Source: a virus
IMG/VR virus record: IMGVR_UViG_3300017748_000002
Coordinates: 59,333 to 123,332 of that record
Length of the DNA stretch: 64,000 nt
Direction: 5' to 3' (one strand)
Notes under the pieces: generated by a model
The model's database searches: none
Told to the model about the DNA's origin: nothing
What the model saw: the letters and a program-made list of their open reading frames with translations, nothing else
Shown here: positions 1-53,675 of the stretch, one piece after another
Position numbering within the stretch: the first letter of the stretch is position 1
Layout: the number at the start of each line of letters is the position of its first letter
Position numbers and translations under genes: made by a program

Positions 1-1149
1 ATTGTAAAGGACGTTCGTGTTTCAATGATGAAAGGCGAATGGAATCCTGAATGTGAACGTTGCCGCCAAGAAGAAGTGAATGGTATTAGATCAAGGAGAG
101 AATATGAATCAGAAGATTGGGACCTTACGCTTGAAGAGGCTATGGAAAAAACTAACGAGGACGGATCCATTGATCCTACTGATTTTGATATCGAGTTTTT
201 CGATATTCGTTACGGCAATTTCTGCAACCTTAAATGCCGTATGTGCGGGCCCACCGACAGTCACATGTGGTATTCAGATCATGTCGCCCTTTACAATACC
301 ACCAAGTATAAAGATACTCACGATCTCATCCAACTGACTAAGAATGAAAAAGGTAAATGGTCTACAGACCAGTATGACTGGTTTAAGAACTCAAACTTCT
401 ATTGGAATAACTTCGAGAAACATACTGGTAAAGCAAAGAAACTTTACATTGTAGGTGGTGAACCACTCATCATTGAAGAACACTTTGAATCACTTGAAAG
501 ATTGATTGCTGCGGGTAGAGCCAAAGACATTCAGATTGAATACAACAGTAACCTGACTAACGTTACTGACCGCATCATGAAGATATGGGAAGAGTTTAAA
601 CAGGTTCGTATTGGTGTTTCAATCGATGGTTATGCTGATGTGTTTGAATATCAAAGAACACCAGCTAAGTGGAAGTCTGTTTATAAAAACATGAAAAAAC
701 TAAACGACAATCCGAATATTAATTTAAAGGGTTGGTTTGCTTTTACAGTAACTCCGTTTAATGTATTTCATTTGCCTGAGTTTATGAAATGGAAACTTGA
801 AGAATCTGGACTCACACGGTATAATCCTATCACTGGTCCACGTCCTATTATTACTCAACATATGTGTCATTCACCAAAGTATTACAATGTGAAAGTTCTA
901 CCGCAAATGTTGAAGGATGAAGTCTGTGATACATACCAGGAGTACATTGATTGGGTAATGGATTCAAATCATTCTGATCATGTGAAAAAGAAATTTATTG
1001 AGATACTCGATGGTATTATGGATTTTATGAATTCCGAAGATTTTGCAACAGACCATTTGCAAGAGTTTATTGACCATACAAAGAAACTTGATTTGATACG
1101 TGGCCAGAATATTTTAGATGTAGTGCCACAATACGAGGGATTATTTTGA
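1..1149 (+). CDS. Radical SAM protein with N-terminal twitch-type Cys region (5' partial)
   Basis: The reading frame is open to the first base of the window, so the gene starts upstream. The first visible residues align with the middle of the Cys-rich N-terminal region of the paralogues at 2084, 4686 and 6522 (ECERCRQEE here, GCRKCWEEE there). The radical SAM cluster motif is CNLKCRMC (codons 223-246), followed by GGEPL and a strand/helix pattern ending near a conserved SIDG. The family cleaves S-adenosylmethionine with a 4Fe-4S cluster; the N-terminal cysteines probably hold an auxiliary cluster. The substrate is unknown. The stop overlaps the next start (TTGA), so translation is probably coupled. 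An internal ATG at 25 is unlikely to be the true start because it would cut the Cys domain. Confidence 0.85.
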   Translation: MVKDVRVSMMKGEWNPECERCRQEEVNGIRSRREYESEDWDLTLEEAMEKTNEDGSIDPTDFDIEFFDIRYGNFCNLKCRMCGPTDSHMWYSDHVALYNTTKYKDTHDLIQLTKNEKGKWSTDQYDWFKNSNFYWNNFEKHTGKAKKLYIVGGEPLIIEEHFESLERLIAAGRAKDIQIEYNSNLTNVTDRIMKIWEEFKQVRIGVSIDGYADVFEYQRTPAKWKSVYKNMKKLNDNPNINLKGWFAFTVTPFNVFHLPEFMKWKLEESGLTRYNPITGPRPIITQHMCHSPKYYNVKVLPQMLKDEVCDTYQEYIDWVMDSNHSDHVKKKFIEILDGIMDFMNSEDFATDHLQEFIDHTKKLDLIRGQNILDVVPQYEGLF

Positions 1150-2096
1150 AACAGGTAGCACAAAGAATTAGTTGGAGAACACCTGAGACTCCGTTTGCCG
1201 TTCAATGGTACATGACACCAAGATGTAATTTTGATTGTGTCTACTGTATGCCATGGGATCCGGATAATAAGTGGTCATACTATCATGACGATAAATCTAA
1301 ACCACCAACATTTGATATAATGAAAACTTACGTAGATAAGATTATTGCTCATAGGGGAAATCATATTGAATGGGGTCTTGGCGGTGGCGAACCAACTGTT
1401 ATTAAAGATCTTCCAAAGCTAGTAAAATATATTCGAAAAACAGATCCGTATGACTTGACAATTTGTACAAATGGATCTTTACCAGAAAAGAAGCTTTTAA
1501 AATTATATGAAGATCTTGACGGTATGGTTATGTCATTACACATGGACTATGTTTCAAAGAATCCAGATGAATATATCGAGAAATTGATTGCTCTCGAAGA
1601 ACAACGTAGACCTGACCAAAGTTTGACAGCACGGTTTATTGTCAATCCTCTTCATATGGAATTGATCGATAATATGTACCAAGAACTCATGATGGCTAGT
1701 ATTAATAAGATCGATTTTCGAAATGTAAAGCTATTCAACGGTGAATCATTTTATAGTAATGAGCAAATTAAAGTGATGGAATCATGGTACGACGAGTATG
1801 GTAAACAGACATCTAATATCATTCAAACGTTTGAAGATGGATCTGAAAAAGAAGTTAATTATGAATTAATCACTTTGAATAATGAACATTCATACACTGG
1901 TTGGTCATGTATGGCTGGTATCGAACAATGCAATATTGATCCACTTGGAAGAGTCTCGGTTGGTAATTGTGCAGTTGGAGGATCTATTGGTAATTTAAAT
2001 GATAATGATTTTACTTTCCCAACTGCACCTGTGACATGTACTAAACAATGGTGTTTAGATTATTGCGATATTCGTACGACAAAATGGAAACCTTAA
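1146..2096 (+). CDS. Radical SAM protein with SPASM-like C-terminus
   Basis: The radical SAM motif CNFDCVYC lies at residues 27-34, with GGGEPTV further on. The C-terminal part has a Cys-rich SPASM-like pattern: WSCMAG, then a DPLGRV turn, GNC and CTKQWC..YC, which probably binds an auxiliary Fe-S cluster. It is 316 aa. The start is TTG at 1146, overlapping the upstream stop; the first in-frame ATG would leave only four residues before the cluster motif. Its closest relative in the window by layout is the gene at 18978 (W-x-C-x-x-G, then a xPDGS/xPLGR turn). The enzyme should make a 5'-deoxyadenosyl radical; the substrate cannot be read from sequence. Confidence 0.82.
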   Translation: MKQVAQRISWRTPETPFAVQWYMTPRCNFDCVYCMPWDPDNKWSYYHDDKSKPPTFDIMKTYVDKIIAHRGNHIEWGLGGGEPTVIKDLPKLVKYIRKTDPYDLTICTNGSLPEKKLLKLYEDLDGMVMSLHMDYVSKNPDEYIEKLIALEEQRRPDQSLTARFIVNPLHMELIDNMYQELMMASINKIDFRNVKLFNGESFYSNEQIKVMESWYDEYGKQTSNIIQTFEDGSEKEVNYELITLNNEHSYTGWSCMAGIEQCNIDPLGRVSVGNCAVGGSIGNLNDNDFTFPTAPVTCTKQWCLDYCDIRTTKWKP

Positions 2097-3283
2097 ACTA
2101 TTCTCAAACATTCTGTCCGATGCCTTTCAATCATTCTTATATCGGACCTGAGCAAATTAAAAAACCTTGCTCGCGATTTCTATTTCCGGAAATTGACCAT
2201 GACAACTATGATCAATTCATTAAAGAACTTCAACAGTACAAGTTAAAAGGTGAAAGACATCCGGGTTGCCGTAAGTGTTGGGAAGAAGAAGATGCTGGTC
2301 GAAAAAGATCACTAAGGCAAATTCATCTTGAAGTCGGTGGATTTAACTATCCATTAGTACACGATCTAGATCCTCATGATCCAAAAATTCGTTGGCTTGA
2401 ATTAGCATTTTCAAATCGTTGTAATATTCGCTGTCGTATGTGTGGTCCTTTCTACTCAACAAACTGGTTTAAAGATTGGGTAGCAGTAAATGAATATGCT
2501 TTTGGTGTACCGGGTGTAGGTAAAAAGAAAGAAGACATTGAAACATGGTTAGCAACAAATGGTAATAAACCACAAGGGTTTGACATATCGGAATTAGATG
2601 AGCATATCCCACATTTACGTATGGTAAAGATGACTGGTGGAGAGCCGTTCATCATTCCGGAATATCAACAAATTCTAGAACGTATTGATGAGATTGGTAA
2701 CGCCGAAGGTATGTGGTTGAACTATAGTACTAACCTTACAGTCCGTCCAAAGAAAAGACTCAAAGAACTCTGGCAAAAATACGAAAAGATAATGTTTGCT
2801 GCTTCGCTTGATGGAGTAGGGCATTTCCAAGAATACCAAAGATATCCGACTCAATGGTGTGACGTGAAACAAGTGATGGATGATCTAATGGAGATTCCTA
2901 ATTCTTGGGTTGGAGTCAGATCAACTATTACGATCTATAATGTTCTCAACATGTCAGGTATTGCTAACTGGTTTGCTGAGCAAGAAGATAAATATCATGG
3001 ATTCAGCGAAGACAGTTGGTTGAATTTTGTAGCTGTGTCTGAGCCAAATTTCTTATCAATCACCGTTTTACCAAAGTGGGCTAAAGATATGGTAGCTGAA
3101 AGATTATCATGGTCTGCACCATCAAGAAAAGTCCAAGATAATTTTGATCAAATAATCAATTATATGTACAACCAAGATAATTCACACCTTCTTCCAAAAT
3201 TCAAAGATTACACGAATAAATTAGATGCTGTTCGTAATGAAAGTTTTAAAGAAGTCAACCCTGAATTTGCGAGTCTAGTATGA
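2084..3283 (+). CDS. Twitch-domain radical SAM protein
   Basis: The N-terminal region has CPMPF (C11), KPC (C29) and GCRKCWEEE (C62, C65), an arrangement expected to ligate an auxiliary Fe-S cluster. The core radical SAM motif CNIRCRMC is at residues 113-120, followed by GGEPF and SLDG. An earlier ATG at 2048 would add 12 residues lying entirely inside the upstream gene. ATG 2084 sits in the normal short overlap and is preferred. It belongs to the same subfamily as the genes at 1, 4686 and 6522, which are diverged paralogues. The stop overlaps the next gene by four bases (ATGA). Substrate unknown. Confidence 0.85.
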   Translation: METLNYSQTFCPMPFNHSYIGPEQIKKPCSRFLFPEIDHDNYDQFIKELQQYKLKGERHPGCRKCWEEEDAGRKRSLRQIHLEVGGFNYPLVHDLDPHDPKIRWLELAFSNRCNIRCRMCGPFYSTNWFKDWVAVNEYAFGVPGVGKKKEDIETWLATNGNKPQGFDISELDEHIPHLRMVKMTGGEPFIIPEYQQILERIDEIGNAEGMWLNYSTNLTVRPKKRLKELWQKYEKIMFAASLDGVGHFQEYQRYPTQWCDVKQVMDDLMEIPNSWVGVRSTITIYNVLNMSGIANWFAEQEDKYHGFSEDSWLNFVAVSEPNFLSITVLPKWAKDMVAERLSWSAPSRKVQDNFDQIINYMYNQDNSHLLPKFKDYTNKLDAVRNESFKEVNPEFASLV

Positions 3284-4185
3284 AATACGAAGAGTTATCA
3301 TTTGACGATCTAGGAACTAAACGGCAAAGGCCGATGTTTTTAAGTACCTTTACTCAATTTCGTGCTAGCATGAATATGAGAACATACCCACATGATCCTC
3401 ATGCTTATACAAAACACTTCTTAAATGAAATTGATATGTGGATTCATGCTCATAAATGGGTTCAGTATAGAGGATTAGAACGCTTTCCAATACGTGAAGC
3501 CATACATGGAACGACTCATACACTTGATGAATTGCATTATCTACATAAAGGAAAGATTTGTGTGTTTGACGGTGAATACAGATATCACGAAAGATTGCTT
3601 GGTTGGAAATTAAAAAAGATAAAAGCTGCTGATGAAATTTCGTTTGGTGATGTTCTTGTAGTATCATATCCATCGTGTATTACTACAAATTATCTTCCAG
3701 ATTTTGATGAAGTTCTTGATCATTGCTATAAAATAAATGTGCCAGTTCATATTGATGGAGCTTGGTTTGGTCAGTGTCGAAACTTTTATTTTAATGCTAG
3801 CCATCCAGCAATTCAATCAGTGTCTGTATCTTTATCGAAAGCTCTTGGTATGGGATCAAATAGAATTGGTATTCGTTACAGCCGAGAAAAAGTCGCAGGT
3901 CCTATTTCTATTATGAATGACTATAATTATTGTAATGTGTCTGATATGTGGATCGGTGTTGAAATGATGAAATACTATGGTCCTGATTTTTGGTGGAAAA
4001 ATTATACACCGTTGTATCAAAAAGTGTGTAAAGACTTTGGTTTAGAAGAATGCCACTCAATTCATCTTGGCAAAGGTGATACATATTATGGAATACGTAC
4101 ACCACTTCGATTGTTAATTGAAGGTAAGTACGATGAGCGTGGAACTGATAGAGGATTAAATGACATCGAAAGAAACGAAAAATAG
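3280..4185 (+). CDS. PLP-dependent aminotransferase-fold protein
   Basis: The protein is 301 aa with a fold-type-I PLP enzyme signature. VPVHIDGAWFG carries the Asp (D159) expected to contact the pyridine nitrogen, and SVSLSKALGMGSNRIGIRY carries the candidate Schiff-base Lys (K187) about 28 residues later. The spacing and the 'DxAW...S.SK..G....G' pattern fit aminotransferases and decarboxylases. It is shorter than usual (about 350-450 aa) and seems to lack much of the N-terminal small domain. The start is an ATGA overlap with the radical SAM gene upstream. In this context it may aminate a sugar or act on an amino acid moiety. That role is inference. Confidence 0.6.
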   Translation: MKYEELSFDDLGTKRQRPMFLSTFTQFRASMNMRTYPHDPHAYTKHFLNEIDMWIHAHKWVQYRGLERFPIREAIHGTTHTLDELHYLHKGKICVFDGEYRYHERLLGWKLKKIKAADEISFGDVLVVSYPSCITTNYLPDFDEVLDHCYKINVPVHIDGAWFGQCRNFYFNASHPAIQSVSVSLSKALGMGSNRIGIRYSREKVAGPISIMNDYNYCNVSDMWIGVEMMKYYGPDFWWKNYTPLYQKVCKDFGLEECHSIHLGKGDTYYGIRTPLRLLIEGKYDERGTDRGLNDIERNEK

Positions 4186-4702
4186 AATCATTGATAATCC
4201 ATTTGACATGGATACAATTGACATGATTCTTGAAAATACTCAAGATGAGCGTAGATACCTCGGTAAAGAAAAAAAGAACTGGGTACGAAGATTACCTGAA
4301 GCTGCTCAAGAATATATGAATAGACAGATGGATTGTTTCCAAGGTCGGTGGGTCTTTGAATACTTTCATTCTGATGTCAATGTTTTATATCATACCGACA
4401 CTATCCCTGGTAATGATGGTGATCTTGGTTGTATTGTTCCGATTGATTGGAGTGGTCATCAACCAGCAACTCTTATGTACAAATGGTGGTCAGATCGAAG
4501 AGTAATATATGCTGGGTCAAATCAAGTTCGATATGAAGACACTGGTGAATTAGAATACTTACATTTAGGTTATCATTCAGTTGATATGATTTTTGAATGG
4601 GATAGAGAGAAAGCGCTTATATTCGATTGTAAGCAATTACATTCAGCTCGAAAGTTTAATCAAAGCGCTTGGAAGGATTTTTTAATTGGATTCGTTGTCT
4701 AA
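4160..4702 (+). CDS. 2OG-Fe(II) oxygenase-like protein
   Basis: The 180-aa protein has the facial-triad pattern of 2-oxoglutarate/Fe(II) dioxygenases: H78-x-D80 in VLYHTD, and a distal H161 three residues before R164 in QLHSARKF. The hydrophobic strand GCIVPIDW between them fits the jelly-roll core. It overlaps the upstream PLP gene by 26 bases and the next radical SAM gene by 17. Hydroxylation or oxidative desaturation of an unknown substrate is the likely chemistry. Another protein with the same HxD...FHKTRPF layout is encoded at 47639. The family call rests on motif spacing only. Confidence 0.5.
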   Translation: MTSKETKNRIIDNPFDMDTIDMILENTQDERRYLGKEKKNWVRRLPEAAQEYMNRQMDCFQGRWVFEYFHSDVNVLYHTDTIPGNDGDLGCIVPIDWSGHQPATLMYKWWSDRRVIYAGSNQVRYEDTGELEYLHLGYHSVDMIFEWDREKALIFDCKQLHSARKFNQSAWKDFLIGFVV

Positions 4703-5873
4703 GACAGTATGTATGCTTCCATGGGAATCTTTTACTGTGACGATGAAGAATACGATTCGTCCTTGTTGTAGATTTCCTACTCAAGAAGCAGTAGGTATGC
4801 AAGATTATGAGAATGCTTTTCGTCAATTACGAGAAGACATGTTAGCTGGAAAACAAGATCCACGTTGTTCAAAGTGTTTTGAAGAAGAGGCAAGCGGTAA
4901 TCCAAGTATGCGTACCGCTGCTAATGAGTTTCACGGTTTTGATTTTAAGAAAGAGCATCTTACTTCAGACTTTCGTAAACTAACTCATATTGAATTAAGC
5001 CTAGACAATACTTGTAATCTACAATGCCGAATGTGTTCTAGTCAATTCTCGTCTAAGCTTCTGAAAAGAGATCAATGGTTAGTCAACAGCCATGAGCATC
5101 TCGATTTTCACGTGGCTAAAGTTCAAAAGTCAAGATACGAAACGTTGAAAGATCTCAAGGTTGATTGGTCTGAGCTTCGTAGTGTAAAACTACTTGGTGG
5201 TGAACCATTTCTTTCTCCCAACTTTCTAGACTTCTTGTATTTTCTTGATATGAGAACGGATATCTCAAATGTTCAACTCGAGATCGTAACCAATTGTACT
5301 ACTCAATTGACTGAAGAAATAGTCGAGATTCTCAATCAATTTAAGTTTATTCGATTGTCTGGTAGCTTTGATGGATTACCAAAACATAGCGCATATCAAA
5401 GAGTCGGATCTATTTGGCATAGAGGTCTAGATAATTTTATTGAATACGGTGAACTACTTACCAATTGTAGATCTACTATACACCAAACATTTACTGTTCT
5501 TAATGTAAGTCATTTAGATGAGGCACTCTCTTTATATAAACCTCATTGCGATACTCAATCTTGGTCATATGACGATTATCAATTCTCTTTCTTACACGCT
5601 CCCGATTGGTTTGAAGACTGGGTATTGTCAAGAAATAATAATCAGAAGCTTCGTAATATTTTTAAGAAACGTAAGTATGATCATATTAAATGGCATAGAT
5701 TACTTCACACCATACAAGTATTTGATGATTATCATGGAACAAGTCTGAAAGAAGCGAACCCGGAATTAGCTGAAGCGTTGCGTATAAATACCAAACGATA
5801 TGTGGATGCACACATACGACCTGAAACTCGTGATTGTTATTACTGTGATTTAGTAGATGAAAAAATATTATAA
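4686..5873 (+). CDS. Twitch-domain radical SAM protein
   Basis: The N-terminal auxiliary-cluster cysteines are C9 (VCMLPWESF), C27/C28 (RPCC) and C61/C64 (RCSKCFEEE). The radical SAM motif CNLQCRMC is at 110-117, followed by LGGEPFL and SGSFDG. Unlike its paralogues it ends in a further CYYC pair (C384, C387), a possible extra metal site. The start is TTG at 4686 or TTG at 4695; there is no ATG before the Cys domain. It overlaps the upstream oxygenase-like gene and the downstream FkbM methyltransferase. Substrate unknown. Confidence 0.83.
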   Translation: MDSLSKTVCMLPWESFTVTMKNTIRPCCRFPTQEAVGMQDYENAFRQLREDMLAGKQDPRCSKCFEEEASGNPSMRTAANEFHGFDFKKEHLTSDFRKLTHIELSLDNTCNLQCRMCSSQFSSKLLKRDQWLVNSHEHLDFHVAKVQKSRYETLKDLKVDWSELRSVKLLGGEPFLSPNFLDFLYFLDMRTDISNVQLEIVTNCTTQLTEEIVEILNQFKFIRLSGSFDGLPKHSAYQRVGSIWHRGLDNFIEYGELLTNCRSTIHQTFTVLNVSHLDEALSLYKPHCDTQSWSYDDYQFSFLHAPDWFEDWVLSRNNNQKLRNIFKKRKYDHIKWHRLLHTIQVFDDYHGTSLKEANPELAEALRINTKRYVDAHIRPETRDCYYCDLVDEKIL

Positions 5874-6525
5874 TATTAGAGTTCTGAACGATCTTCTACA
5901 AAAGAAATTAGAACATCGCTGGAATAAAGATGATGAATTTTATTGGGGTGGCAAGGCTGGTCAAAAGCTATCTTATCATATAGATTTACTTTCTTTCCAT
6001 TATATGTATCTTTATGATTTTGATTTTGGTTCGTATGTAGATGTTGGAGCTTTGCAATGCAGTGAAACATTTTTTGAATTGTTTGATGAATGTCACTTAT
6101 TCGAACCAAATCCACTTTATAGCAAAGAACTTAGAAAATGTGATAATGTAAATCTTTACGAAATGGCTCTTACAGACAAAAAAAGTAAAGCAACACTATA
6201 TATCGGAGACGGAACATCTACGTTAAATGGTAAATATGTTGAAGACAATGAAGATTTTTTTAAGCATGAAATAGTAGTAACTACTAATATTTTAGATAAC
6301 TACGATTTTAAAGTAGATTTTCTTAAAATAGATACTGATGGTAGTGACGCAGATGTTATTACAGGTGGTGAAAAAATAATAGCAAAAGAAAAACCACTTA
6401 TCTTTATTGAGCATTTTATGAATAAAGATTCAGTAGAACGTGAATGTCTATTTGATAATGGATTTGTTGAAATATCTGGACAAACAAAAAGTAATAAATT
6501 TTATGTACACAGTGAACGACTATGA
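5857..6525 (+). CDS. FkbM-family methyltransferase
   Basis: The protein is 222 aa. SAM-binding motif I is YVDVGA at about 60-65 and the acidic strand-2 end is HLFEPNP at about 80-86. FkbM-type DFLKIDTDGSDADVITGG follows at about 154-171; the family hallmark is 'lKiDveG.e..vl.G'. FkbM enzymes O-methylate hydroxyls of polyketides, sugars and glycan chains. Here it sits between two twitch radical SAM genes and overlaps both (17 and 4 bases), so it is probably in the same pathway. O-methylation of a sugar or peptide hydroxyl is a reasonable inference. Confidence 0.75.
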   Translation: MKKYYNIRVLNDLLQKKLEHRWNKDDEFYWGGKAGQKLSYHIDLLSFHYMYLYDFDFGSYVDVGALQCSETFFELFDECHLFEPNPLYSKELRKCDNVNLYEMALTDKKSKATLYIGDGTSTLNGKYVEDNEDFFKHEIVVTTNILDNYDFKVDFLKIDTDGSDADVITGGEKIIAKEKPLIFIEHFMNKDSVERECLFDNGFVEISGQTKSNKFYVHSERL

Positions 6526-7703
6526 AATGTAAACTTGCTTGGAGCCATTTAGATTTTAAACCCGGTGGTTATGCCCCGTGTTATAGATTCAAACTACATA
6601 ATGGACATCAATTTGGTAGTGTACCAGAAATGCCTGATGTTAATTCATCAGAGTGGAAACGTGTACGCGAACAATTGATGAATGATGAATGGCCAGCCGA
6701 ATGTATAGATTGTAGGATCCAAGAAGAAAATGGAATCAAATCGTACAGACAAAGATCCGAAGATCTACTGGTTTCAGAACCAGATTATAATAACACGGAA
6801 GTCGTCGTCCGAGACCTCCAGCTCAAACTCAACAGAGCATGCAACTATTCATGCCGGCATTGCACGGTTGCTTCTAACTCTAACTTTATTAAAGTCGGAA
6901 AGAAAAACCCGAAAGTAGGGCAGAAGCTTTGGGATGATCACCACTTCGATCACGTGATCGAAAGACACGATCATCAGATTGATATTCCAACACCTGAAGT
7001 TATTGACCATCTCTTTGAAAATGTATTACCAACAGTAGAACGCATTGAATTCTCTGGTGGTGAGCCGTTCTTTCATGTTGAGATGTATCGGTTTCTTGAA
7101 AGAATGATTGCAGATCCAAAGATTGATACGAGCAAAATCACTCTTGTTTACAATACAAACATGTCAATTACTAAATTTAAGAATTATGACATTGTTAAAT
7201 TATGGGAACACTTCAACCGAGCTGATATTACTGTCAGTATGGACGGAACCGGAGATCTATTTAATTACTTTAGACAAGGCGGTGACTATGAAACTGTCAT
7301 AGAAAATATTCATGATATGTTGAATAGAACAGACAAAGTTGAAAAGCTTCTTTTAGTTTGTACTACCACAGCTTATCATGCTTTTTATATGAATGAAATT
7401 AGTAATGATTTATTTCATCTCAAAGAAGATTTAGAAAGACACTATGGAGTTGAAGTCAAGTATAGAACCACTTTTGTACATTGGCCTGAAGGACTTGATA
7501 TTGTGAACTTAGCAGAAGACACAAAGAAAGAGATTCTACAAAACTTATCTTATAACGATTTTACTCGTGAATTTGAAATGAGACTTCAAGGCAAGAGAAC
7601 AATTCCAGAAGAAACATTCAAAGAAATTGTCAAACTACAAGATCAACTTTATAATAGGGATGCGAGTGAATTAGCTCCAAAGATTTTCGATTATGTCTAC
7701 TAA
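6522..7703 (+). CDS. Twitch-domain radical SAM protein
   Basis: C3, C20 and the C61/C64 pair (ECIDCRIQEE) make up the N-terminal auxiliary-cluster region. The radical SAM motif CNYSCRHC is at 107-114, followed by SGGEPFFH and SMDGTGD. It is 393 aa and overlaps the FkbM gene by four bases (ATGA). The stretch around 6770-6870 uses a more GC-rich codon set than the flanks. It is the fourth member of the subfamily that includes the genes at 1, 2084 and 4686. The C-terminal half is helical and lacks SPASM cysteines. Substrate unknown. Confidence 0.85.
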   Translation: MKCKLAWSHLDFKPGGYAPCYRFKLHNGHQFGSVPEMPDVNSSEWKRVREQLMNDEWPAECIDCRIQEENGIKSYRQRSEDLLVSEPDYNNTEVVVRDLQLKLNRACNYSCRHCTVASNSNFIKVGKKNPKVGQKLWDDHHFDHVIERHDHQIDIPTPEVIDHLFENVLPTVERIEFSGGEPFFHVEMYRFLERMIADPKIDTSKITLVYNTNMSITKFKNYDIVKLWEHFNRADITVSMDGTGDLFNYFRQGGDYETVIENIHDMLNRTDKVEKLLLVCTTTAYHAFYMNEISNDLFHLKEDLERHYGVEVKYRTTFVHWPEGLDIVNLAEDTKKEILQNLSYNDFTREFEMRLQGKRTIPEETFKEIVKLQDQLYNRDASELAPKIFDYVY

Positions 7704-12041: not shown

Positions 12042-12976
12042 AAGTAGCTCAATTACAAGCCGATATTACTACGTATTGTAATAGCCATTGTGGTGGATGT
12101 ATACGAAATATTGATGGAGGAGAAACGTGTGTTGATCTAGTACATCTTCCACTTAATATCTTCAGAAAAATAAACTTTAGTGATATTGAAGTAGTATATT
12201 TTAATGGAGCTTATGGCGATTTTACAATGCACCCTGATGGTATTCAATTTATTGATTCTATTCCTGAGCACGTTGTCATTGATATTTCAACCAATGGTGG
12301 CACAAGAAATAAAGGATGGTGGCAGCTGCTGGCTAAAACACTCAGTAAATTCACAGCAAGAGTTAGCTTTGCAATCGATGGTCTATCCACAAATCATTTA
12401 TACAGACGTGGAGTCGACACTGAAAAAGTTTTAGATAATGCAGAAGCATTTATTCAAGCTGGAGGAAGAGCCAGATGGAAGTATATTATGTTCGAACACA
12501 ATAAGCATGAAATTGAAACTGCAAGTCAATTAGCTCGCGATATTGGATTCGAATCATTCGTAATGGTTGAATCATACAACGAAGAAATATATCAAAAGAA
12601 ATATAAAAACTTTTCAGAAAGCGTTGCAAAAAGAATTCCGCTCGATGAATCGTATAATTGGAGATCAAGAAGTCTAGAATATCCTGAAGACTACGAAGAT
12701 AACCACCCGTGTCGTTGGAGAAATAAAAGACGAGCTCAACTTGATGCGTGGGGTAATATATGGCAATGTTGTTACATGCCTTCGATAGCCACTCAAAAAG
12801 ATACAAAAATGTTTGAAGAATTAAGCATGTTAAAGCTTGAAAATAATTTGCATTCAGATGAATACGACAACATTCTTCAAAGTAGTTTCTTTGCTGAATT
12901 ATTCGATGAACCTCTAGAAGCTTGCAAGAAATGTGAAGAGTACGATAATGAAAAAGTTAATTTTTCAATTCTTTAA
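12032..12976 (+). CDS. Radical SAM/SPASM-type protein (tandem trio 3)
   Basis: The 314-aa protein has CNSHCGGCIR at residues 16-25, NGAYGDF in the GGEP position, STNGGTR and FAIDGL. Its SPASM-like end comprises HPCRWRNKRRAQLDAWGNIWQCCYMP and CKKC near residue 300. The start may be ATG 12032 or ATG 12038; the latter would make an ATGA overlap with the upstream stop. It is the most diverged member of the trio. It overlaps the downstream glycosyltransferase gene by 29 bases. Confidence 0.8.
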   Translation: MDMKVAQLQADITTYCNSHCGGCIRNIDGGETCVDLVHLPLNIFRKINFSDIEVVYFNGAYGDFTMHPDGIQFIDSIPEHVVIDISTNGGTRNKGWWQLLAKTLSKFTARVSFAIDGLSTNHLYRRGVDTEKVLDNAEAFIQAGGRARWKYIMFEHNKHEIETASQLARDIGFESFVMVESYNEEIYQKKYKNFSESVAKRIPLDESYNWRSRSLEYPEDYEDNHPCRWRNKRRAQLDAWGNIWQCCYMPSIATQKDTKMFEELSMLKLENNLHSDEYDNILQSSFFAELFDEPLEACKKCEEYDNEKVNFSIL

Positions 12977-13595
12977 AGAACAGCCTTTGTTTCATGGTGA
13001 TGAACGAGATACACTCGGGGTGCAGATTGTTCCGTATTCTATTCGTACTGTTTCAAATTATGCTCAACGAATAGGTGCTGATTATAAGTTTGTCTCAAAT
13101 AGAAAATTTAACCATTTACCAAGTGTACATTCTGAAAAGCTTCAATGTCTTATGGAAACAGGATATGACAAAGTCTTAGCTCTTGACACAGACATAATTA
13201 TTCCACCAGATACAGAGATAGATATATTTAATGAATATCGGCATTCACAGCTTGCTCTTAGAGGTTCGCCAAAACATTTAGGTTTAATGTCACGAATAAA
13301 CGGTGGTGTTGTTTTATGGGATAAACAAACTATTGAGTTAGTCCAACCTATGTTAAACGAACTTCTTCAGTTAAACACAAAAAGAGATTTAATGTGGCAT
13401 GACGAACATTTTATTCAGAGTTGTTGGATGGAATACGATATTGGTGTGACTGGACTCAAATGGGAATGGAATCGAAACGGTGAAGAGTATCATGACTGGA
13501 AACAACCGGCGTACTTTATACACTATGGCGCTGTAACAGAAGCTCGGCTTGCTTTTGATAAAAAACATTGGGATGACAGACTATGCGGATTTTAG
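12948..13595 (+). CDS. GT-A-type glycosyltransferase-like protein
   Basis: The 215-aa protein opens with MKKLIFQFF, as its relative at 9273 does. The DxD motif is LALDTDIII (D80, D82), followed by a RINGGVVLWDK strand typical of glycogenin-like GT-A enzymes and a C-terminal YFIHYGAV. ATG 12948 is preferred; a GTG at 12933 is deeper in the previous gene. It overlaps the carbamoyltransferase gene by 13 bases, which suggests that a glycosyl product may then be carbamoylated. Donor and acceptor are unknown. Confidence 0.62.
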   Translation: MKKLIFQFFKEQPLFHGDERDTLGVQIVPYSIRTVSNYAQRIGADYKFVSNRKFNHLPSVHSEKLQCLMETGYDKVLALDTDIIIPPDTEIDIFNEYRHSQLALRGSPKHLGLMSRINGGVVLWDKQTIELVQPMLNELLQLNTKRDLMWHDEHFIQSCWMEYDIGVTGLKWEWNRNGEEYHDWKQPAYFIHYGAVTEARLAFDKKHWDDRLCGF

Positions 13596-14905
13596 GTATT
13601 AGTGAAGGTTCACACGACGCAGCATGGACATTGGTTGAAGCAGCTACAATTGTAGAAGCTCATCATGTTGAGAGACATACTCGAGTAAAAAATGATAAGT
13701 GGTTAAACAAAGATCTTCTTCCAGAAGCTGACATTGTTGTAGGACACGAGAATAAGTATCGTGTTCGTAGTCGAAACGCAATTGCTGGTCAAGAACATCA
13801 ACAAGAAAATATCGAAACAGATACTGACTATAACCACTACGACACTCATGCATGGGCTGGCTGGTCTACTTCTTCATTTGAAGACTGTGATATTCTTTGT
13901 GTCGATGCTATTGGTGAAATGGAGACTGGCGCTGCATACACTATGCGAGATCGAGTGTTGACCAAAACATGGGAAATGAAATACCCAAAAAGTATTGGTC
14001 TAGCGTATTCTGCCGTGACTGCTGCTCTTGGTTATAAGCCTATGGAAGAAGAATATATTGTCATGGGTTTAGCTGCCTATGGCGAACCACTATATGACTT
14101 CGACTATCTTATGGATACCAATTGTCATAAAGGAATTGAACTGCCTAACGGAAGACCAGAAGATATTGCTGCATCAATTCAAGTATTCTATGAAAAGCAA
14201 TTATTGAATCTTGTTAAAGAGTATTGCCATCACGAAAATCTAGTACTGATGGGTGGCTGCGCTTTGAATTGTGTAGCCAATTCTAGAATCGAAGGAAAGA
14301 ATATATGGATCATGCCAAATCCCGGAGATGCCGGTTCATCTCTTGGAGCAGTAGCTGCTTTTTACGAAGATAAATTAGATTGGGAGGGACCTTATCTTGG
14401 AACTAATATCGAAAATGAAATTAATCCTCGTGAGATTGCTCGATATATTGCTGAGCACGGTGTGTGTGGCGTGGCTAACGGTCGTGCTGAGTTTGGCCCT
14501 CGTGCCCTTGGTAATCGTAGCCTTCTTGCTGACCCCCGTCGCGATGTTAAAGACACGGTCAACGAAATCAAAAGAAGACAAAAATTTAGACCCTTTGCAC
14601 CGGCCATCTTGGAAGAATGTGCCGAGCAGTTTTTTGAAGGACCAATGAATGAGTACATGCAATTTGTGGCAAAAGCTAAACATGATTATAAGTCCGTCAC
14701 TCATGTGGATGGGACGGCAAGAGTACAAATAGTCAGACAAAAGACTTATGGATCTCAGATTCGAAAGATCCTTGAAGAATTTACTGATATTACTGGTTGT
14801 CCGATGTTATTGAATACAAGTCTCAATATTAAAGGAGAACCAATGGTTGATAGTTGGGAACACGCAGAAGAATGGATGAAAAAATACAACGTAAACGTCT
14901 TTTAA
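13583..14905 (+). CDS. Carbamoyltransferase, NodU/CmcH family
   Basis: The protein is 440 aa. The N-terminal actin-like ATPase-type domain begins ILGISEGSHDAAW and contains MGGCALNC. The C-terminal YrdC-like part has GRAEFGPRALGNRSLLADPR, KFRPFAPAILEE and LLNTSLNIKGEPM, all hallmarks of this family. Members transfer a carbamoyl group from carbamoyl phosphate, through carbamoyl-AMP, to hydroxyls on Nod factors, antibiotics or glycans. It is shorter than usual (about 520-600 aa), with a compact N-terminal domain, but the signature blocks are intact. In this cluster it probably O-carbamoylates a sugar or peptide product. Confidence 0.85.
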   Translation: MRILGISEGSHDAAWTLVEAATIVEAHHVERHTRVKNDKWLNKDLLPEADIVVGHENKYRVRSRNAIAGQEHQQENIETDTDYNHYDTHAWAGWSTSSFEDCDILCVDAIGEMETGAAYTMRDRVLTKTWEMKYPKSIGLAYSAVTAALGYKPMEEEYIVMGLAAYGEPLYDFDYLMDTNCHKGIELPNGRPEDIAASIQVFYEKQLLNLVKEYCHHENLVLMGGCALNCVANSRIEGKNIWIMPNPGDAGSSLGAVAAFYEDKLDWEGPYLGTNIENEINPREIARYIAEHGVCGVANGRAEFGPRALGNRSLLADPRRDVKDTVNEIKRRQKFRPFAPAILEECAEQFFEGPMNEYMQFVAKAKHDYKSVTHVDGTARVQIVRQKTYGSQIRKILEEFTDITGCPMLLNTSLNIKGEPMVDSWEHAEEWMKKYNVNVF

Positions 14906-15699
14906 TTACCGGCGGATGTAGCCACTCAGATAGCAACTATAGTGTTTATAAAAGCCGTAATATCAAGACGTGGCCAGAACTCGTAGCTAGTCAATTAAAC
15001 TGTGATTTAATAAATGTTGCTAAAAAGGGCATGGGAAATGACTATATCAGCGGTGCCTTAATGGATGCTGTGATGGATAATAAAGATCGTGATATTGTAG
15101 TTATGATCTTGTGGACATCCGGTGATAGGTGCAATCTATTCGACGTCGGTACGTTATGGCATCAAAGAGAAACGCTAGCATATCATGAAAAACGAAAATT
15201 AGAACCCGGACCTGATGGACCTGTTCCGGGAGAAGCCGATGCATCGTTTGAAGATGCTGTTTGGCCATATAGTGATGATTGGTTTTATATTGATGAAAAA
15301 ACCTTAAATCATAATTTAAGATCTATATGGACTATTGATCATCTTTGTAGGACGTTAAGAATACCTATATATCATAGACAAGCATATTCATTAGTTAATT
15401 CTATCACGTACACCGGCATGTATCATTATGAAGGCCAATACACCGATCTAGAAATAAAAATGAATCAGCTCGAGAGGCAGCATAAACTTCTTCAAGCAGT
15501 ACCGAAGAGTAGATGGTACATTGATTATCGTGATTGGCGTAATGGATTTAAAATTGGTAATATGCCACAGATGTGGATTAACGATGGAACGAATGGAGAA
15601 CCTGTTGATGGCCATCCAAATCAAAGAGGGCATGAATGGATAGCAAAAGACTTCTTATCACTGCAGGATGCAGCTTTACAGAACCAACGTTCTATTTAG
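14872..15699 (+). CDS. SGNH-hydrolase-like protein (paralogue 2 of 6)
   Basis: The block I-like motif is LLITGGCSHSD (S17 candidate nucleophile; Cys replaces the usual Asp of GDS). KKGMGNDY gives block II, and NKDRDIVVMILWTSGDRCNLFD replaces the standard block III. VDGHPNQRGHEWIAKDF gives the block V His. ATG 14872 is chosen over an upstream TTG at 14854. It is the first of five tandem overlapping paralogues running to 18985. All share a helical insertion between block III and the C-terminus that is richly charged and variable in length. Confidence 0.68.
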   Translation: MDEKIQRKRLLITGGCSHSDSNYSVYKSRNIKTWPELVASQLNCDLINVAKKGMGNDYISGALMDAVMDNKDRDIVVMILWTSGDRCNLFDVGTLWHQRETLAYHEKRKLEPGPDGPVPGEADASFEDAVWPYSDDWFYIDEKTLNHNLRSIWTIDHLCRTLRIPIYHRQAYSLVNSITYTGMYHYEGQYTDLEIKMNQLERQHKLLQAVPKSRWYIDYRDWRNGFKIGNMPQMWINDGTNGEPVDGHPNQRGHEWIAKDFLSLQDAALQNQRSI

Positions 15700-16397
15700 A
15701 AAAAAATATCCTTCCTTGGCCGAATATTATTGCTGATGGAGTAGGATTTGATATTTTAAATGTTGGCAGAGGTGGAGCAGGACAAGACTATATTTCAAAT
15801 GCGGTTATCGATGCAGTGATGGAAAATCAAGATCGAGATCCAATTGTCATGGTGCTTTGGTCAGAGTTTTCTAGAATTAATCTATATGATTTTTGTACAA
15901 AATGGGTATCAACAAATAGCAGAGTTCTTGATACAATTCCTAAGCCTCCATCTGAAAATATGAATCCACATGTGGGTATGACTATGAGTGAAAAAGATAT
16001 TATGATAGCAAGAAATCAATTTAGAATCATGTGGAGAACTAAGAAATTTGTTGAGGATCTAGGCTTTGAGTTTTTTGCAAAGATAGGTATTAGCAGCCTC
16101 TATCAAATCATGCAGATAGCTGATGGTGGAGACAGAGAAAAACGAGCTATTCACTATGGAATGCTGAGAAAAAACATTTTAAAAGATTTTTACTTTCAGA
16201 ATTCTGGTATCACTATGAAAGAACTTGAAGAAGGTTTACCGCAGCATCCAAGAGAAACTGATCCTCAATCTTTTCTAGACACCGGAATATTTTTAGAGTG
16301 TCGACACCCAAATCAGGCAGGACACGAAATCATTGCTGATGCTTTTCTAGGAAAGTATTTAAAAGCACACGAACCACCGGTATTCATCTATGACTAA
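15636..16397 (+). CDS. SGNH-hydrolase-like protein (paralogue 3 of 6)
   Basis: Block I is LLITAGCSFTE (S13), block II VGRGGAGQDY, the block III substitute NQDRDPIVMVLWSEFSRINLYD, and block V CRHPNQAGHEIIADAF. It is 253 aa, the shortest of the set. It overlaps the previous gene by 64 bases; that overlap encodes the block V end of one protein and the block I start of the next. The C-terminal EPPVFIYD resembles the ends of paralogues 1 (RPIYVYD) and 6 (PSFVYE), so this tail is conserved in three of the six. Confidence 0.68.
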   Translation: MDSKRLLITAGCSFTEPTFYLEKNILPWPNIIADGVGFDILNVGRGGAGQDYISNAVIDAVMENQDRDPIVMVLWSEFSRINLYDFCTKWVSTNSRVLDTIPKPPSENMNPHVGMTMSEKDIMIARNQFRIMWRTKKFVEDLGFEFFAKIGISSLYQIMQIADGGDREKRAIHYGMLRKNILKDFYFQNSGITMKELEEGLPQHPRETDPQSFLDTGIFLECRHPNQAGHEIIADAFLGKYLKAHEPPVFIYD

Positions 16398-17307
16398 AAA
16401 ACTTCTTATCACTGGCGGATGTAGTAATACTACGCAGAAATATTGGGCCTATACTGAAAAGTCAATTATCGTTTGGCCAACAATTGTAGCACAAGATATG
16501 GACTGGGATCTATTAAATCTTGGAATTGCTGGTTCATCTAATGATAGTATTGAAAATTCTGTGTATGACGCTGTTTTAGAGAATCAAGATAGAGACATTG
16601 TTGTAATGATGTTCTGGACAGAACCGTGTAGAGGCACATGGTGGGATCTAGATCATTATCAATTACACGGTACACGAGACAGATATACTCTTTGGTCTGG
16701 TGTTGAAAAGAAGTATCCAGAAATCGATCATGTTGAATTTTGTCGAAGATTTGACCAGCTTGATGATTGGAGCTTTTTAGCTTGGTTGAAAGACAGAAGT
16801 TACTTTCCAAACAATTGGGCAAAAGAACCATTTGACCAACATCTCAAATACATGTATCTAATTCAAGATATTATGAAAAGACATTTATTGTCATTAGCAT
16901 ATAACGACGACAGGATGTTAGAAGTCGATGCACAGATGGTAGACTTCAGTCTCAGATCTATGGTTCGTCTAAAAGGTTTTCTCGATTCACTAAAAATACC
17001 AACCGTTCATAAGTATAGTTTATCAATGACAGAAACTATGCCTTGGTCGTATCCTCATTGGAAAGATGATCCATTAGACATTAAAGAAAAAGCAATGATG
17101 ATGAGAAGAAAAGAAGGTCTTCAACGGCATTGTAGTAAACATCCACGTATTAAAGAAATGGGAATGTCTCGCAAAGATTGGCAAAATGGTTGGTGCGATT
17201 TTAATAAGAGAGAACAAGGATATTTACTTGACTGCGGTCACCCTAATCAAAAAGGACAGAACCTTATAGCTGATGAGTTTATCGAATGCGTAAACTCCTT
17301 ATTGTAG
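16390..17307 (+). CDS. SGNH-hydrolase-like protein (paralogue 4 of 6)
   Basis: Block I is LLITGGCSNTT (S12), block II LGIAGSSNDS, the block III substitute NQDRDIVVMMFWTEPCRGTWWD, and block V LDCGHPNQKGQNLIADEF, which keeps an Asp three residues before the His as in classic DxxH. The 305-aa protein has an extra Trp/Asp-rich helical segment in the middle (about 95-145) that is shared in outline with paralogue 5. ATG 16390 overlaps the upstream stop by eight bases. Confidence 0.68.
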   Translation: MTKKLLITGGCSNTTQKYWAYTEKSIIVWPTIVAQDMDWDLLNLGIAGSSNDSIENSVYDAVLENQDRDIVVMMFWTEPCRGTWWDLDHYQLHGTRDRYTLWSGVEKKYPEIDHVEFCRRFDQLDDWSFLAWLKDRSYFPNNWAKEPFDQHLKYMYLIQDIMKRHLLSLAYNDDRMLEVDAQMVDFSLRSMVRLKGFLDSLKIPTVHKYSLSMTETMPWSYPHWKDDPLDIKEKAMMMRRKEGLQRHCSKHPRIKEMGMSRKDWQNGWCDFNKREQGYLLDCGHPNQKGQNLIADEFIECVNSLL

Positions 17308-18173
17308 GCGGAGACAGTAATACAGATTCTACGTATACAGAAAACGTAAAGAACAACATTTTTTCATGGCCACATTCTGTCGCGGACAAAATGGATTGGG
17401 ACTTGCTAAACGTTGCTCAAATGGGACGTTCTAATGAGTCAATAGAGAATAGAGTTTATGACGCTGTTGTAGAGAATCAAGACAGAGATATTGTCGTGAT
17501 GGTTTTATGGTCTCAATCGATCAGGCAATCACCGTTTGATCTTTTTAATATTATATTTACAAACGACAAAAGACAATTCAACGAATTTCAGACTTCTAAA
17601 TTTCTAACAAATTTTCCGGGAATGGATATTGAAAAGTGGGAAGATATTCTTTTTATTGAAAATAATAATTTAAGCTATAATAAATGGATTGAAACAAGAG
17701 AATATTTGCCAAAGTCTGCAGATTATAATCAGCCATATGATTTACAGACTAAACATACGTATATACTAGAACAAATACTTAAATTCAAATTTCAAGATAC
17801 CGATGATGTGTATCATCTTGATGAAAAGATTTTACACTTCAATCTCAGATCTATGAGAAGATTAAAACTTTTTCTTGACAGCTTAGGTATTCGTAGTATA
17901 TTTAAGTCTGGGCTTTCAGTGACTCGTAGCATTCCAGGAATGTTTTCTCCTTGGATTCAAGATCATGATCTAAAGCAAAAAACACTCAATATAAAAAGGC
18001 TAAATAGATTGAATAGTGTTTGTAAAGAAAAGTTAGATTTTGAATTAAGTGATTGGGAAGAAGGATTAATCTGGGCTTTGAGTAAGCACGGTCATGTGAT
18101 GGAATGTAACCATCCAACTCAAACTGGTCATGAAATAATTGCTAAGGAATTTATAAAATGCGCAAACTATTAA
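17286..18173 (+). CDS. SGNH-hydrolase-like protein (paralogue 5 of 6)
   Basis: Block I is LLIVGGDSNTD (S11, with the canonical GDS). Block II is VAQMGRSNES, the block III substitute NQDRDIVVMVLWSQSIRQSPFD, and block V MECNHPTQTGHEIIAKEF. It is 295 aa. SIENRVYDAVVENQDRDIVVM is nearly the same as the corresponding part of paralogue 4, so these two are the closest pair. The start overlaps the upstream stop by 22 bases. Confidence 0.68.
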   Translation: MRKLLIVGGDSNTDSTYTENVKNNIFSWPHSVADKMDWDLLNVAQMGRSNESIENRVYDAVVENQDRDIVVMVLWSQSIRQSPFDLFNIIFTNDKRQFNEFQTSKFLTNFPGMDIEKWEDILFIENNNLSYNKWIETREYLPKSADYNQPYDLQTKHTYILEQILKFKFQDTDDVYHLDEKILHFNLRSMRRLKLFLDSLGIRSIFKSGLSVTRSIPGMFSPWIQDHDLKQKTLNIKRLNRLNSVCKEKLDFELSDWEEGLIWALSKHGHVMECNHPTQTGHEIIAKEFIKCANY

Positions 18174-18985
18174 TTGTTGGCGGATGTAGTTGGTCTAATC
18201 CGAACGAAGAATGCTATCACGTTGCTGGGATCGATAAGATCTGGCCTGAAATGGTAGCAGAATTTCTTGACATGGATTTAATTAACGTATCAGAAGGTGG
18301 AGCTGGAAACGATTATATTTACGGTCAGACATTAGATGCTATCGAAGAAAACAAAAATCGTGATATTGTCGTTATGGCTCTTTGGTCGCAGGCAATCCGA
18401 ATGGTGCCATTTGATTTACCGATCGGTCAATTTACATTTGGTGTTCATACTCCAATGTTGGTACCGCCTATTGGTCCGCTCAAAGAAGATATTCAAGAAA
18501 GATTTAGAGATCTTTTTTGGTTACACGTTTATGATCAGGATGCTCCGATGCATCTTCAATTAACAAAGGAAGAATTCTGGACAAAAATTGCGAATGTTTC
18601 TCTTCGAAATATTTACATGCTTGATCACTACTGTAAAACAAGAGATATTCCTATTCTTCATCACCGTGCTCTTCATACTCTTGCTGGCATTGAATGGTTA
18701 TTGAAAAAGCAAATCAATTTTCAATTGAGAAAACAAGTCTTTGATGCTTGCCAAAACAATCAATATTATCAGAAGATTCAAAAATTTAAAAATATCGTAG
18801 GACATCCAAATTTCTTTGAACCGGGTTCTAGTTGTTTTGATCTCTACGAAAAATATTACATTACACCACAAGAAAAACACCCAAATACACAAGGGCATAT
18901 GTTAATTGCTAACAGTTTTGTAAACAAATATATAGAACTATACGAAGAAAGATCTACATCAGAACCGAGTTTTGTCTATGAATGA
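18158..18985 (+). CDS. SGNH-hydrolase-like protein (paralogue 6 of 6)
   Basis: Block I is LLIVGGCSWSN (S11), block II VSEGGAGNDY, the block III substitute NKNRDIVVMALWSQAIRMVPFD, and block V EKHPNTQGHMLIANSF. It is 275 aa. The first codons (MRKLLIVGG) match those of paralogue 5, which suggests recent duplication of at least the 5' end. It overlaps the last radical SAM gene of the cluster by eight bases. Confidence 0.68.
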   Translation: MRKLLIVGGCSWSNPNEECYHVAGIDKIWPEMVAEFLDMDLINVSEGGAGNDYIYGQTLDAIEENKNRDIVVMALWSQAIRMVPFDLPIGQFTFGVHTPMLVPPIGPLKEDIQERFRDLFWLHVYDQDAPMHLQLTKEEFWTKIANVSLRNIYMLDHYCKTRDIPILHHRALHTLAGIEWLLKKQINFQLRKQVFDACQNNQYYQKIQKFKNIVGHPNFFEPGSSCFDLYEKYYITPQEKHPNTQGHMLIANSFVNKYIELYEERSTSEPSFVYE

Positions 18986-20078
18986 TTTGAAATGGAGTCA
19001 ATACGACTTCACAAAAATACCTTTTAATGATATTGTAAGTGTCGGCCAACGCACGATGATGTATCGTGACTTGTTTACAGTGAGTTGGTTGCTCGGTCGA
19101 TTCTGTAATTATTCTTGTTCATATTGTTGGCCATACGCATCAAGTCGTGAAAAAGACCATAGGCCAATTGATTTGATTCTTATGACAATTGACGAGATTA
19201 AAAGACAATCTCGCAAGAATGAATATAATTCTTTTCATTTTAGTTTTAGTGGCGGTGAACCTACGTTCCATCCACAATATTTAGAAATTATGGAATACCT
19301 TGCTGATGATGTTCCTAACTGTAACTATCATTCAGTCCATATGACTTCTAATATTTCTCGTAAGATGAAGTGGTTTGAAGAATATGCTAAAATATGTTCG
19401 CGGTTTAATCGATCAAGTATCACAGCTTCATGCCATAGAGAACATGTTAATACCCAAGAAAAAGTTGCAGAGTTCGCTGACAAGCTTGAATACTGCCAAT
19501 CACAAGACATCCAAGTAACTATTAACCAAGTGATGCTACCAGACAAATTTGAGCAGTGTTGGGAAGACGCACTATATTTCCACGAAAGAGGTATCAATGT
19601 TACTCTTAAACCTCAGTCTGATCCTACTGCCAGTTTTATTGTTGATGGATATACTGAATCAATGCTTGAAAAATTACGTAACGGCATGCCTCAAAGAGGA
19701 TTTACCGACATCAAAAAACAAATTACCAGACCGAGACCGAACGTCGAATTAGATCTTCGTTATGAAACAACTGGTGTTCCACAACATATGCAAGTTGAAC
19801 TTGAAGATTCAAAAGGACAAAAATATTATATGGATCAAGCTGAACGGTTCAACACATTCGAGTTTAATAAATTTGAAGGTTGGAATTGTGAATCCGGATA
19901 TAGATCTATTATAATCAGAGAACCGGACGGATCTATAAAAAGATCTTACTCGTGTAATGATGAGCCACTTGGTTATATTCAATCTGGGTTTAAATTATTC
20001 GATAAACCAATGCCGTGTATCACAAAAACATGTGTTTCTTCTGCAGATTCTAAGATCCCAAAGAAGAAAATTGTATAA
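18978..20078 (+). CDS. Radical SAM protein, last gene of the accessory cluster
   Basis: The cluster motif is CNYSCSYCW (residues 43-51), followed by FSGGEPTFHP and a TSNISR segment. The C-terminal part has WNCESG, a REPDGSIKRSYSC turn and CITKTC, similar in plan to the gene at 1146. ATG 18978 is chosen over TTG 18972. The stop codon is embedded in a TATAAATA late promoter (20074-20081), so the cluster ends exactly where late virion transcription begins. Substrate unknown. Confidence 0.82.
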   Translation: MNDLKWSQYDFTKIPFNDIVSVGQRTMMYRDLFTVSWLLGRFCNYSCSYCWPYASSREKDHRPIDLILMTIDEIKRQSRKNEYNSFHFSFSGGEPTFHPQYLEIMEYLADDVPNCNYHSVHMTSNISRKMKWFEEYAKICSRFNRSSITASCHREHVNTQEKVAEFADKLEYCQSQDIQVTINQVMLPDKFEQCWEDALYFHERGINVTLKPQSDPTASFIVDGYTESMLEKLRNGMPQRGFTDIKKQITRPRPNVELDLRYETTGVPQHMQVELEDSKGQKYYMDQAERFNTFEFNKFEGWNCESGYRSIIIREPDGSIKRSYSCNDEPLGYIQSGFKLFDKPMPCITKTCVSSADSKIPKKKIV

Positions 20079-20081
20079 ATA
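20074..20081 (+). promoter_or_regulatory. T4-type late promoter (TATAAATA)
   Basis: An exact TATAAATA match to the T4 late promoter, recognised by the gp55 sigma factor with the gp45 clamp. The predicted +1 is near 20087, giving a leader of about 47 bases to the structural gene at 20134. It overlaps the stop codon of the radical SAM gene. Confidence 0.75.
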
Positions 20082-46679: not shown

Positions 46680-46687
46680 TATAAATA
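46680..46687 (+). promoter_or_regulatory. T4-type late promoter for hsp20
   Basis: TATAAATA beginning one base after the regA stop. The predicted +1 (46693) falls inside the 5' arm of the hairpin at 46688-46718, so late transcripts would lack most of the outer stem. Confidence 0.75.
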
Positions 46688-46718: not shown

Positions 46719-46744
46719 ATAACCTTGCTTAACAGGAGGCAAAT

Positions 46745-47582: not shown

Positions 47583-47588
47583 TAAATA

Positions 47589-47614: not shown

Positions 47615-47638
47615 ATTTTTGTCTTTATGGAGATACCC

Positions 47639-53670: not shown

Positions 53671-53675
53671 CATAT

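Follow-up and report, generated by a model that had tools for sequence, protein, structure and literature searches.

What would a phage build with a dozen radical S-adenosylmethionine (rSAM) enzymes encoded in one block? The question is raised by the virus record IMGVR_UViG_3300017748_000002 (123,332 bases), of which positions 59,333-123,332 are the window analysed here (64,000 nucleotides; coordinates refer to it unless the record or another locus is named, and relatives were taken from IMG/VR). Positions 1-20,078 hold 22 plus-strand genes (g1-g22), in which an initial annotation had seen nine rSAM genes and a dedicated biosynthetic pathway. That extent is right for the window and too small for the whole cluster: a further 6.4 kb upstream (record 52,964-59,162) encodes p0, m3 and m4, all rSAM, together with m1, m2, m5, m6a and m6, and g1 itself reaches back 173 nt past the window edge, so that the full cluster comprises about 30 genes in 26.4 kb, 12 of them rSAM genes. 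Three of these enzymes, p0, g13 and g22, are an evolutionarily linked core that is inherited together, and the surrounding island represents the host recognition cluster (HRC) of a marine T4-like phage (Kyanoviridae-type). With slightly less than an even chance of being right, we propose that the pathway makes and decorates a glycan that is used late and on the virion first, on its tail fibres or elsewhere in the particle.

An rSAM core in phages and Bdellovibrionota

Scanning IMG/VR with g1 recovered 34 loci with syntenic clusters (61-94% identity), and at least 564 viral loci with g22 were confirmed, g22 being 63-92% identical among phages. At least four rSAM-type genes lie around g22 in 71 of the 79 viral loci inspected. 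Across 22 whole g22-bearing viral records, p0 orthologues occur in 17 and g13 orthologues in 16, with both in 16, p0 only in one and neither in five (Fisher p = 2e-4 for co-occurrence, an optimistic value because the records are kin to an unknown degree). At an E-value of 1e-80, p0 has no match in six named phages or in seven g22-negative bacterial genomes. Searches with tblastn returned no match for g22 in 50,697 phage records, nor for m1, m6 or the SGNH-like gene g18 in phage records.

Among cellular genomes, the scan with g1 found no relative and the scan with g22 found 25 loci. Twenty of these are on Bdellovibrionota-type contigs of metagenome-assembled genomes (52-62% identity), some of them hundreds of kilobases long with housekeeping-type neighbours (Peptidase S49, DUF58). 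As in the phages, the three core enzymes occur together, here side by side, with a p0-family gene next to or near g22 in 17/20 loci and a g13-family gene in 16/20, sometimes accompanied by m5 (eight loci); a DxD protein (F3) is present in ten loci and a GT2 glycosyltransferase (F4) in nine, and nucleoside diphosphate (NDP)-sugar epimerase and PP-loop genes also lie near the core. Unlike the phage clusters, these loci are chromosomal, include GT2 and F3 genes, and have no SGNH array or carbamoyltransferase match within 10 kb. The other five loci (L150, L151, L162, L168, L174), in metagenome-assembled genomes of Rickettsiales, Gammaproteobacteria, Chloroflexi and Acidimicrobiaceae, look like phage contigs binned with other organisms, as judged by gene content; they are probably mis-binned or host-linked.

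A class-level search found g22 in 15 of 144 Bdellovibrionia genomes, and the distribution is thus patchy. The g22 tree splits bacterial and phage rows by one change with low branch support (46), too weak a split to indicate a direction of transfer. Three F4-family GT2 proteins carry CxxxCxxC (L169:6437-9385, L167:13684-15186, L172:14195-15700) and are possibly rSAM-like/GT2 fusions, a weak hint towards sugars; neither of the two that were scanned had an rSAM profile match.

Within the window block, genes overlap by 4-64 bp throughout, in agreement with the initial annotation; the largest intergenic gap in the focal cluster is at most 55 bp and almost every neighbouring pair overlaps. With related loci included, 426/477 adjacent pairs overlap and gene order is conserved. 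Close relatives keep p0 (76-91%), g1 (79-94%), g13 (70-87%) and g22 (81-91%), and g1, g4 and g22 are still 63-64% identical in a phage of 518 kb, whereas the SGNH-like genes are mostly at 27-54% (g9 at 82% in one relative) and some genes are missing, against 80-85% for neck gp13. This division between conserved rSAM enzymes and variable SGNH genes is new. Few or no relatives have g7, g11, g15 or g20; for g7, g15 and g20, the examined relatives have no counterpart except in near-identical contigs, and these genes are perhaps recent gains. In loci L033 and L041, the m-block (m1-m6) follows g22 on the same strand, whereas the focal group has it inverted.

Strong turnover among relatives of the SGNH genes, g2, g7, g11, g12, g14 and g15, in a niche that PMC7029224 describes as hypervariable, would fit a loose collection of accessory genes in a plastic island with no single pathway. 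Such a collection is very unlikely, given the conserved order with its overlapping pairs, the co-occurrence of p0, g13 and g22, and the retention of g1 and g22 in the 518-kb phage. Dense overlaps, conserved synteny and the co-inherited core support the dedicated pathway that had been proposed.

Enzyme inventory

The nine rSAM genes first called in the window were borne out by profile searches: all nine proteins have CxxxCxxC and each passes a curated Pfam or NCBIfam cut-off (PF04055, 29.5 bits; NF033640, a twitch-domain subfamily, 170 bits). PF04055 is passed by eight (29.5-54.9 bits); g3 falls below at 27.9 bits and passes NF033640. The latter is passed by p0, itself an N-terminal-twitch rSAM protein (400 bits), g1 (325), g3 (293), g6 (209) and g8 (222), and m3 and m4 are further rSAM genes. 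A PF04055 scan gave 11 matches in the focal cluster and 21, 22 and 17 in other records of the same cluster family.

Several candidate identities were rejected. Prokaryotic viperin is ruled out (NF038283 cut-off 180 bits, against 47.3 for g2 and 42.7 for g22; PADLOC pVip at most 49.7 bits), and the anti-phage-defence reading was dropped on these cut-offs. The preQ0/queuosine pathway is also ruled out: g10 passes PF06508, but no tested rSAM protein reaches the QueE cut-off. No equivalog cut-off for the rSAM/SPASM enzymes of ribosomally synthesized and post-translationally modified peptides (RiPPs) was reached (peptide-maturase profiles gave no more than about 38 bits, against cut-offs of at least 265), and a RiPP precursor gene within the cluster was rejected for want of a gap above 55 bp.

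These results bear on the suggestion that the substrate of the rSAM enzymes is a protein or peptide, such as a tail fibre or other virion protein, altered by crosslinking, epimerisation or hydroxylation, with the sugar-like genes adding to it. The NF033640 twitch and SPASM-like proteins resemble peptide and protein maturases at sub-threshold scores, and the tail-fibre neighbours and late promoter (see below) would suit a virion substrate. We consider this quite unlikely, in view of the unreached RiPP cut-offs, the lack of a gap for a precursor gene, and the bacterial core, which stands beside GT2 genes where there is no virion. An enrichment in Asp-Ser dipeptides in fibre-like proteins (g24, 20494-23787, and u-5, L009:10965-11552; 3.1-3.6 versus about 0.9 expected per 100 residues) was not used as a modification motif, since a weaker version occurs in the fibres of phage C48C1, which lacks the cluster.

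The PLP (pyridoxal phosphate), 2-oxoglutarate (2OG)-oxygenase-like, FkbM, carbamoyltransferase, QueC-like PP-loop and six SGNH-like genes listed initially are likewise present (Table 1), the 2OG-like and SGNH-like genes passing no family cut-off. The g4 product is 58-65% identical even in a 518-kb phage; PDB profile searches with g4, g1, m1 and m6 gave no usable match, and g5 has no Pfam or NCBIfam match. The QueC-type Cys tail is kept across the g10 PP-loop family. By its profile scores, the assignment of g16 as a carbamoyltransferase is certain; an SGNH gene adjoins the carbamoyltransferase gene in 73 of 80 viral loci. Ser, Gly and His-Pro are invariant across the six SGNH-like genes, which make up a single family, score under Pfam cut-offs and weakly match PDB entries, SGNH/GDSL hydrolases among them. 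DxD-type motifs were found in m1 and m2, and m6 matches a PHROG glycosyltransferase (4e-7); the AlphaFold model of m6 was of low confidence (pLDDT 58) and its fold search meaningless. Weak PDB profile matches of m5 to staphylopine synthase CntL (E 0.013) and methyltransferases hint at a SAM fold, and m5 is probably a SAM-fold protein.

None of the cluster proteins has a transmembrane-like segment (19-residue hydropathy maximum 1.6), and no Wzx/Wzy flippase, polymerase, initiating glycosyltransferase or GtrABC-type membrane protein was found within the cluster by hydropathy. The enzymes are thus probably cytoplasmic, and the product must either be attached to phage proteins in the cytoplasm or be handed to host export.

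Elsewhere in the window, two nucleotide-sugar genes adjoin a C-5 cytosine DNA methylase (59876-61066; PF00145, 70 bits), and an A-type Fe-S carrier is a possible rSAM helper. Phage C48C1 has a NifU-like gene instead, just past the region equivalent to the end of the focal record. Fe-S helper genes were rejected as a marker of multi-rSAM phages, as the A-type carrier occurs in 10/24 records with no clean association.

Table 1. Coordinates and supporting evidence for features of the window (the m-block, upstream of the window, is given in coordinates of L009)
Feature	Position	Strand	Evidence
g1, N-terminal-twitch rSAM	25..1149	+	NF033640 324.7 bits; 61-94% identical in 34 viral loci
g2, rSAM with Cys-rich C-terminal tail	1146..2096	+	PF04055 52.5 bits
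g3, N-twitch rSAM	2048..3283	+	NF033640 292.7 bits
g4, PLP-dependent fold-type-I enzyme	3280..4185	+	AlphaFold (AF2) pLDDT 81.6; Foldseek to aminotransferases/decarboxylases
g5, 2OG-Fe(II)-oxygenase-like	4160..4702	+	invariant HxD...H, 8-member alignment
g6, N-twitch rSAM	4686..5873	+	NF033640 208.6 bits
TATAAATA	5783..5790	+	exact match, 66 nt before g7
g7, FkbM-type methyltransferase	5857..6525	+	PF05050 43.7 bits, cut-off 22.7
g8, N-twitch rSAM	6522..7703	+	NF033640 222 bits
g9, SGNH-like	7693..8568	+	family alignment
g10, QueC-like PP-loop enzyme	8540..9286	+	PF06508 24.5 bits, cut-off 22
g11, glycosyltransferase-like	9225..10025	+	DxD-type motif, weak; no family match
g12, rSAM/SPASM-like	9998..10984	+	PF04055 39.6 bits
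g13, rSAM, three-enzyme core member	10977..12041	+	PF04055 46.9 bits
g14, rSAM/SPASM-like	12032..12976	+	PF04055 32.8 bits
g15, glycosyltransferase-like	12933..13595	+	DxD-type motif, weak; no family match
g16, short O-carbamoyltransferase, TobZ/GdmN/NovN type	13583..14905	+	PF16861 166.5, PF02543 125.5 bits
g17, SGNH-like	14854..15699	+	family alignment
g18, SGNH-like	15636..16397	+	family alignment
g19, SGNH-like	16390..17307	+	family alignment
g20, SGNH-like	17286..18173	+	family alignment
g21, SGNH-like	18158..18985	+	family alignment
g22, rSAM, three-enzyme core member	18972..20078	+	PF04055 54.9 bits
TATAAATA	20074..20081	+	exact match, cluster end, before g23
g23, L-shaped-tail-fibre-assembly-like, downstream border	20134..20484	+	55% to C48C1 "L-shaped tail fiber protein assembly"
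g24, tail-fibre-like, beside cluster	20494..23787	+	weak End_tail_spike match; position
g25, tail-fibre-like, own late promoter	23827..25170	+	motif and position
A-type Fe-S cluster carrier, possible rSAM helper	49046..49327	+	PF01521 38 bits, cut-off 26.3
Nucleotide-sugar epimerase/dehydratase	58113..59069	+	PF01370 175 bits
UDP-glucose dehydrogenase-like	59035..59883	+	PF03721 57, PF00984 49 bits
m-block	L009:12964-17736	-	upstream of window

Host recognition niche and late promoter motifs

The nearest named record to this phage is C48C1 (Kyanoviridae; TerL 71%, portal 67%, capsid 66%). The cluster is flanked on one side by VrlC-like (record 45543-50766) and fibre-like genes, and on the other by g23, two fibre-like genes and neck genes (record 84502-86178). 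The HRCs of pelagimyophages and cyanomyophages are reported to hold glycosyltransferases (GTs), lipopolysaccharide (LPS) genes and rSAM "gene cassettes," with a change of the host O-chain proposed (Zaragoza-Solas 2020, PMC7029224). The focal island shares their position between VrlC and neck gp13/gp14, their tail fibres, GT/LPS-type genes (m6 by PHROG, the other GTs by motif only) and rSAM genes, and their hypervariability. It differs from that description in packing 12 rSAM genes into a single block and in having six SGNH genes and a carbamoyltransferase; the passages of PMC7029224 consulted neither define an rSAM core nor assign an rSAM function.

Although the initial annotation saw no promoter between these genes, TATAAATA, the exact T4-type late motif, occurs at two positions in or at the end of the window block (Table 1) and again upstream of the window, 33 nt ahead of p0, the first plus-strand gene, in the short divergent p0/m6 region. 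The whole record has 19 plus-strand and one minus-strand copies, with about 6.5 expected on the plus strand under a first-order model, and most sites lie directly upstream of genes, including capsid-region, sheath and fibre genes. The window total of 10 is mildly above chance (reached in 7/100 shuffles), and the argument thus rests on strand bias and placement. In related loci, where counts include overlapping views of some of the same contigs, TATAAATA precedes g23 in 20/20, g25 in 16/16 and p0 in 10/37, and few other cluster genes; NATAAATA, a reported cyanophage late promoter (PMC2984593), precedes p0 in 15/37. Judged by the exact motif ahead of p0, the plus-strand block is probably a late unit, expressed along with virion genes.

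Multi-rSAM phages have been described before, and the block is less singular than it was first taken to be, some of its relatives carrying 17-22 rSAM matches. The cultured Pelagibacter phage Mosig EXVC030M (MT647606) has, in the same niche, distant homologues of g16, SGNH, m1, m2, m5 and g23 and MoaA-like rSAM genes, but only two or three of the latter, at 22-25% identity, and no p0 orthologue. By gene content, TARA_ERS488813_N000010 is similar in being T4-like with 12 rSAM genes and phage-borne Fe-S assembly genes, and was reported in terms of Fe-S metabolism (Nishimura 2017, PMC5332604). Campylobacter phages CP220 and CPt10 have 11-12 rSAM genes, five of them in one exchangeable module, near tail genes (Timms 2010, PMC2853527); unlike the focal cluster, they have a glycine amidinotransferase module, for which the focal genes scanned gave no family match, and their best matches are at 23-37% with no g1- or p0-type orthologue. 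Mycobacteriophage virion glycosylation (Freeman 2023, as cited in PMC12619734) places a phage-encoded glycan on capsid and tail tube, and is a precedent for such a product.

What the pathway may make

In the glycan proposal, the island would be the phage version of a mobile pathway with p0, g13 and g22 as its core, often with the SAM-fold protein m5. Together with further rSAM paralogues, the PLP enzyme and the QueC-like PP-loop enzyme, the core would synthesise an unusual sugar or glycan or remodel one; the GT-like m1, m2, m6, g11 and g15, the FkbM protein, the carbamoyltransferase and the fast-changing SGNH proteins would assemble and decorate it; and, with the late promoter giving the block the timing of virion genes, tail fibres or other parts of the virion would carry the decorated glycan. 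A sugar is favoured because of the glycan-type tailoring genes, the phage's own NDP-sugar genes, and the GT2 and NDP-sugar genes beside the bacterial core, and virion use because of late timing and fibre neighbours in the focal phage. Among the products first suggested, glycan decoration has the best indirect support, from the GT-like, carbamoyltransferase, FkbM and SGNH genes, whereas a stand-alone peptide is disfavoured by the lack of room for a precursor gene. We know of no rSAM core in mycobacteriophage virion glycosylation.

Several observations weigh against a virion glycan. Peptides or proteins are frequent substrates of SPASM and twitch rSAM families, and no cluster gene has a demonstrated substrate. 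The GT-like character of m1, m2, m6, g11 and g15 comes from DxD motifs and the one PHROG match (m6) only, profile and fold searches having given nothing usable, and the m-block, on the minus strand, lacks an exact late motif. Recognisable tail genes lie near the cluster in only 4/79 other g22 phages (divergent tail genes would escape detection), and a conserved HNH-endonuclease gene adjoins it in 4/5 sampled; the tail niche is thus not general, and we rejected that claim for other lineages. In loci L212, L248, L218 and L189 (14-20 kb), the cluster ends at a strand switch near the HNH endonuclease (phrog_1314), with an ATPase (phrog_1297) in three.

The same chemistry could instead remodel the host cell surface during infection (LPS O-chain or other glycan), blocking co-infection or the adsorption of progeny to debris. 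This role has been proposed for the GTs of pelagimyophage HRCs (PMC7029224) and for the LPS genes of P-SSM2 (PMC2984593), and on Bdellovibrionota chromosomes the core adjoins exopolysaccharide-type GT2 genes, in cells whose own surface would be its target. We regard it as possible but rather unlikely here: the promoter is late, not early, and the cluster has no flippase, polymerase, initiating transferase or membrane protein, such that host remodelling would rely wholly on host export.

The niche with its rSAM cassettes (PMC7029224) and multi-rSAM phages (PMC5332604, PMC2853527) are already published; so far as the literature found shows, the linked p0-g13-g22 core, its Bdellovibrionota counterpart, the extent of its occurrence among uncultured viruses, and the late promoter are new. 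The block is indeed found widely, and no established function came with it. A bolder proposal, which we consider unlikely in full, is that p0, g13 and g22 are the core of an undescribed rSAM pathway to surface sugars or glycans of a new class, common to Bdellovibrionota and many uncultured large aquatic phages, re-tailored by exchangeable enzymes and displayed on the virion. Reports of multi-rSAM phages go back to 2010 but offered no functional handle; the three-enzyme core supplies one. The presence of g22 in at least 564 viral loci, against none of 50,697 phage records, is a measure of the biology missed by culture collections. A product that decorates virions would represent phage glycosylation with unusual chemistry; one that changes the host surface would identify the chemistry of superinfection control in abundant marine phages.

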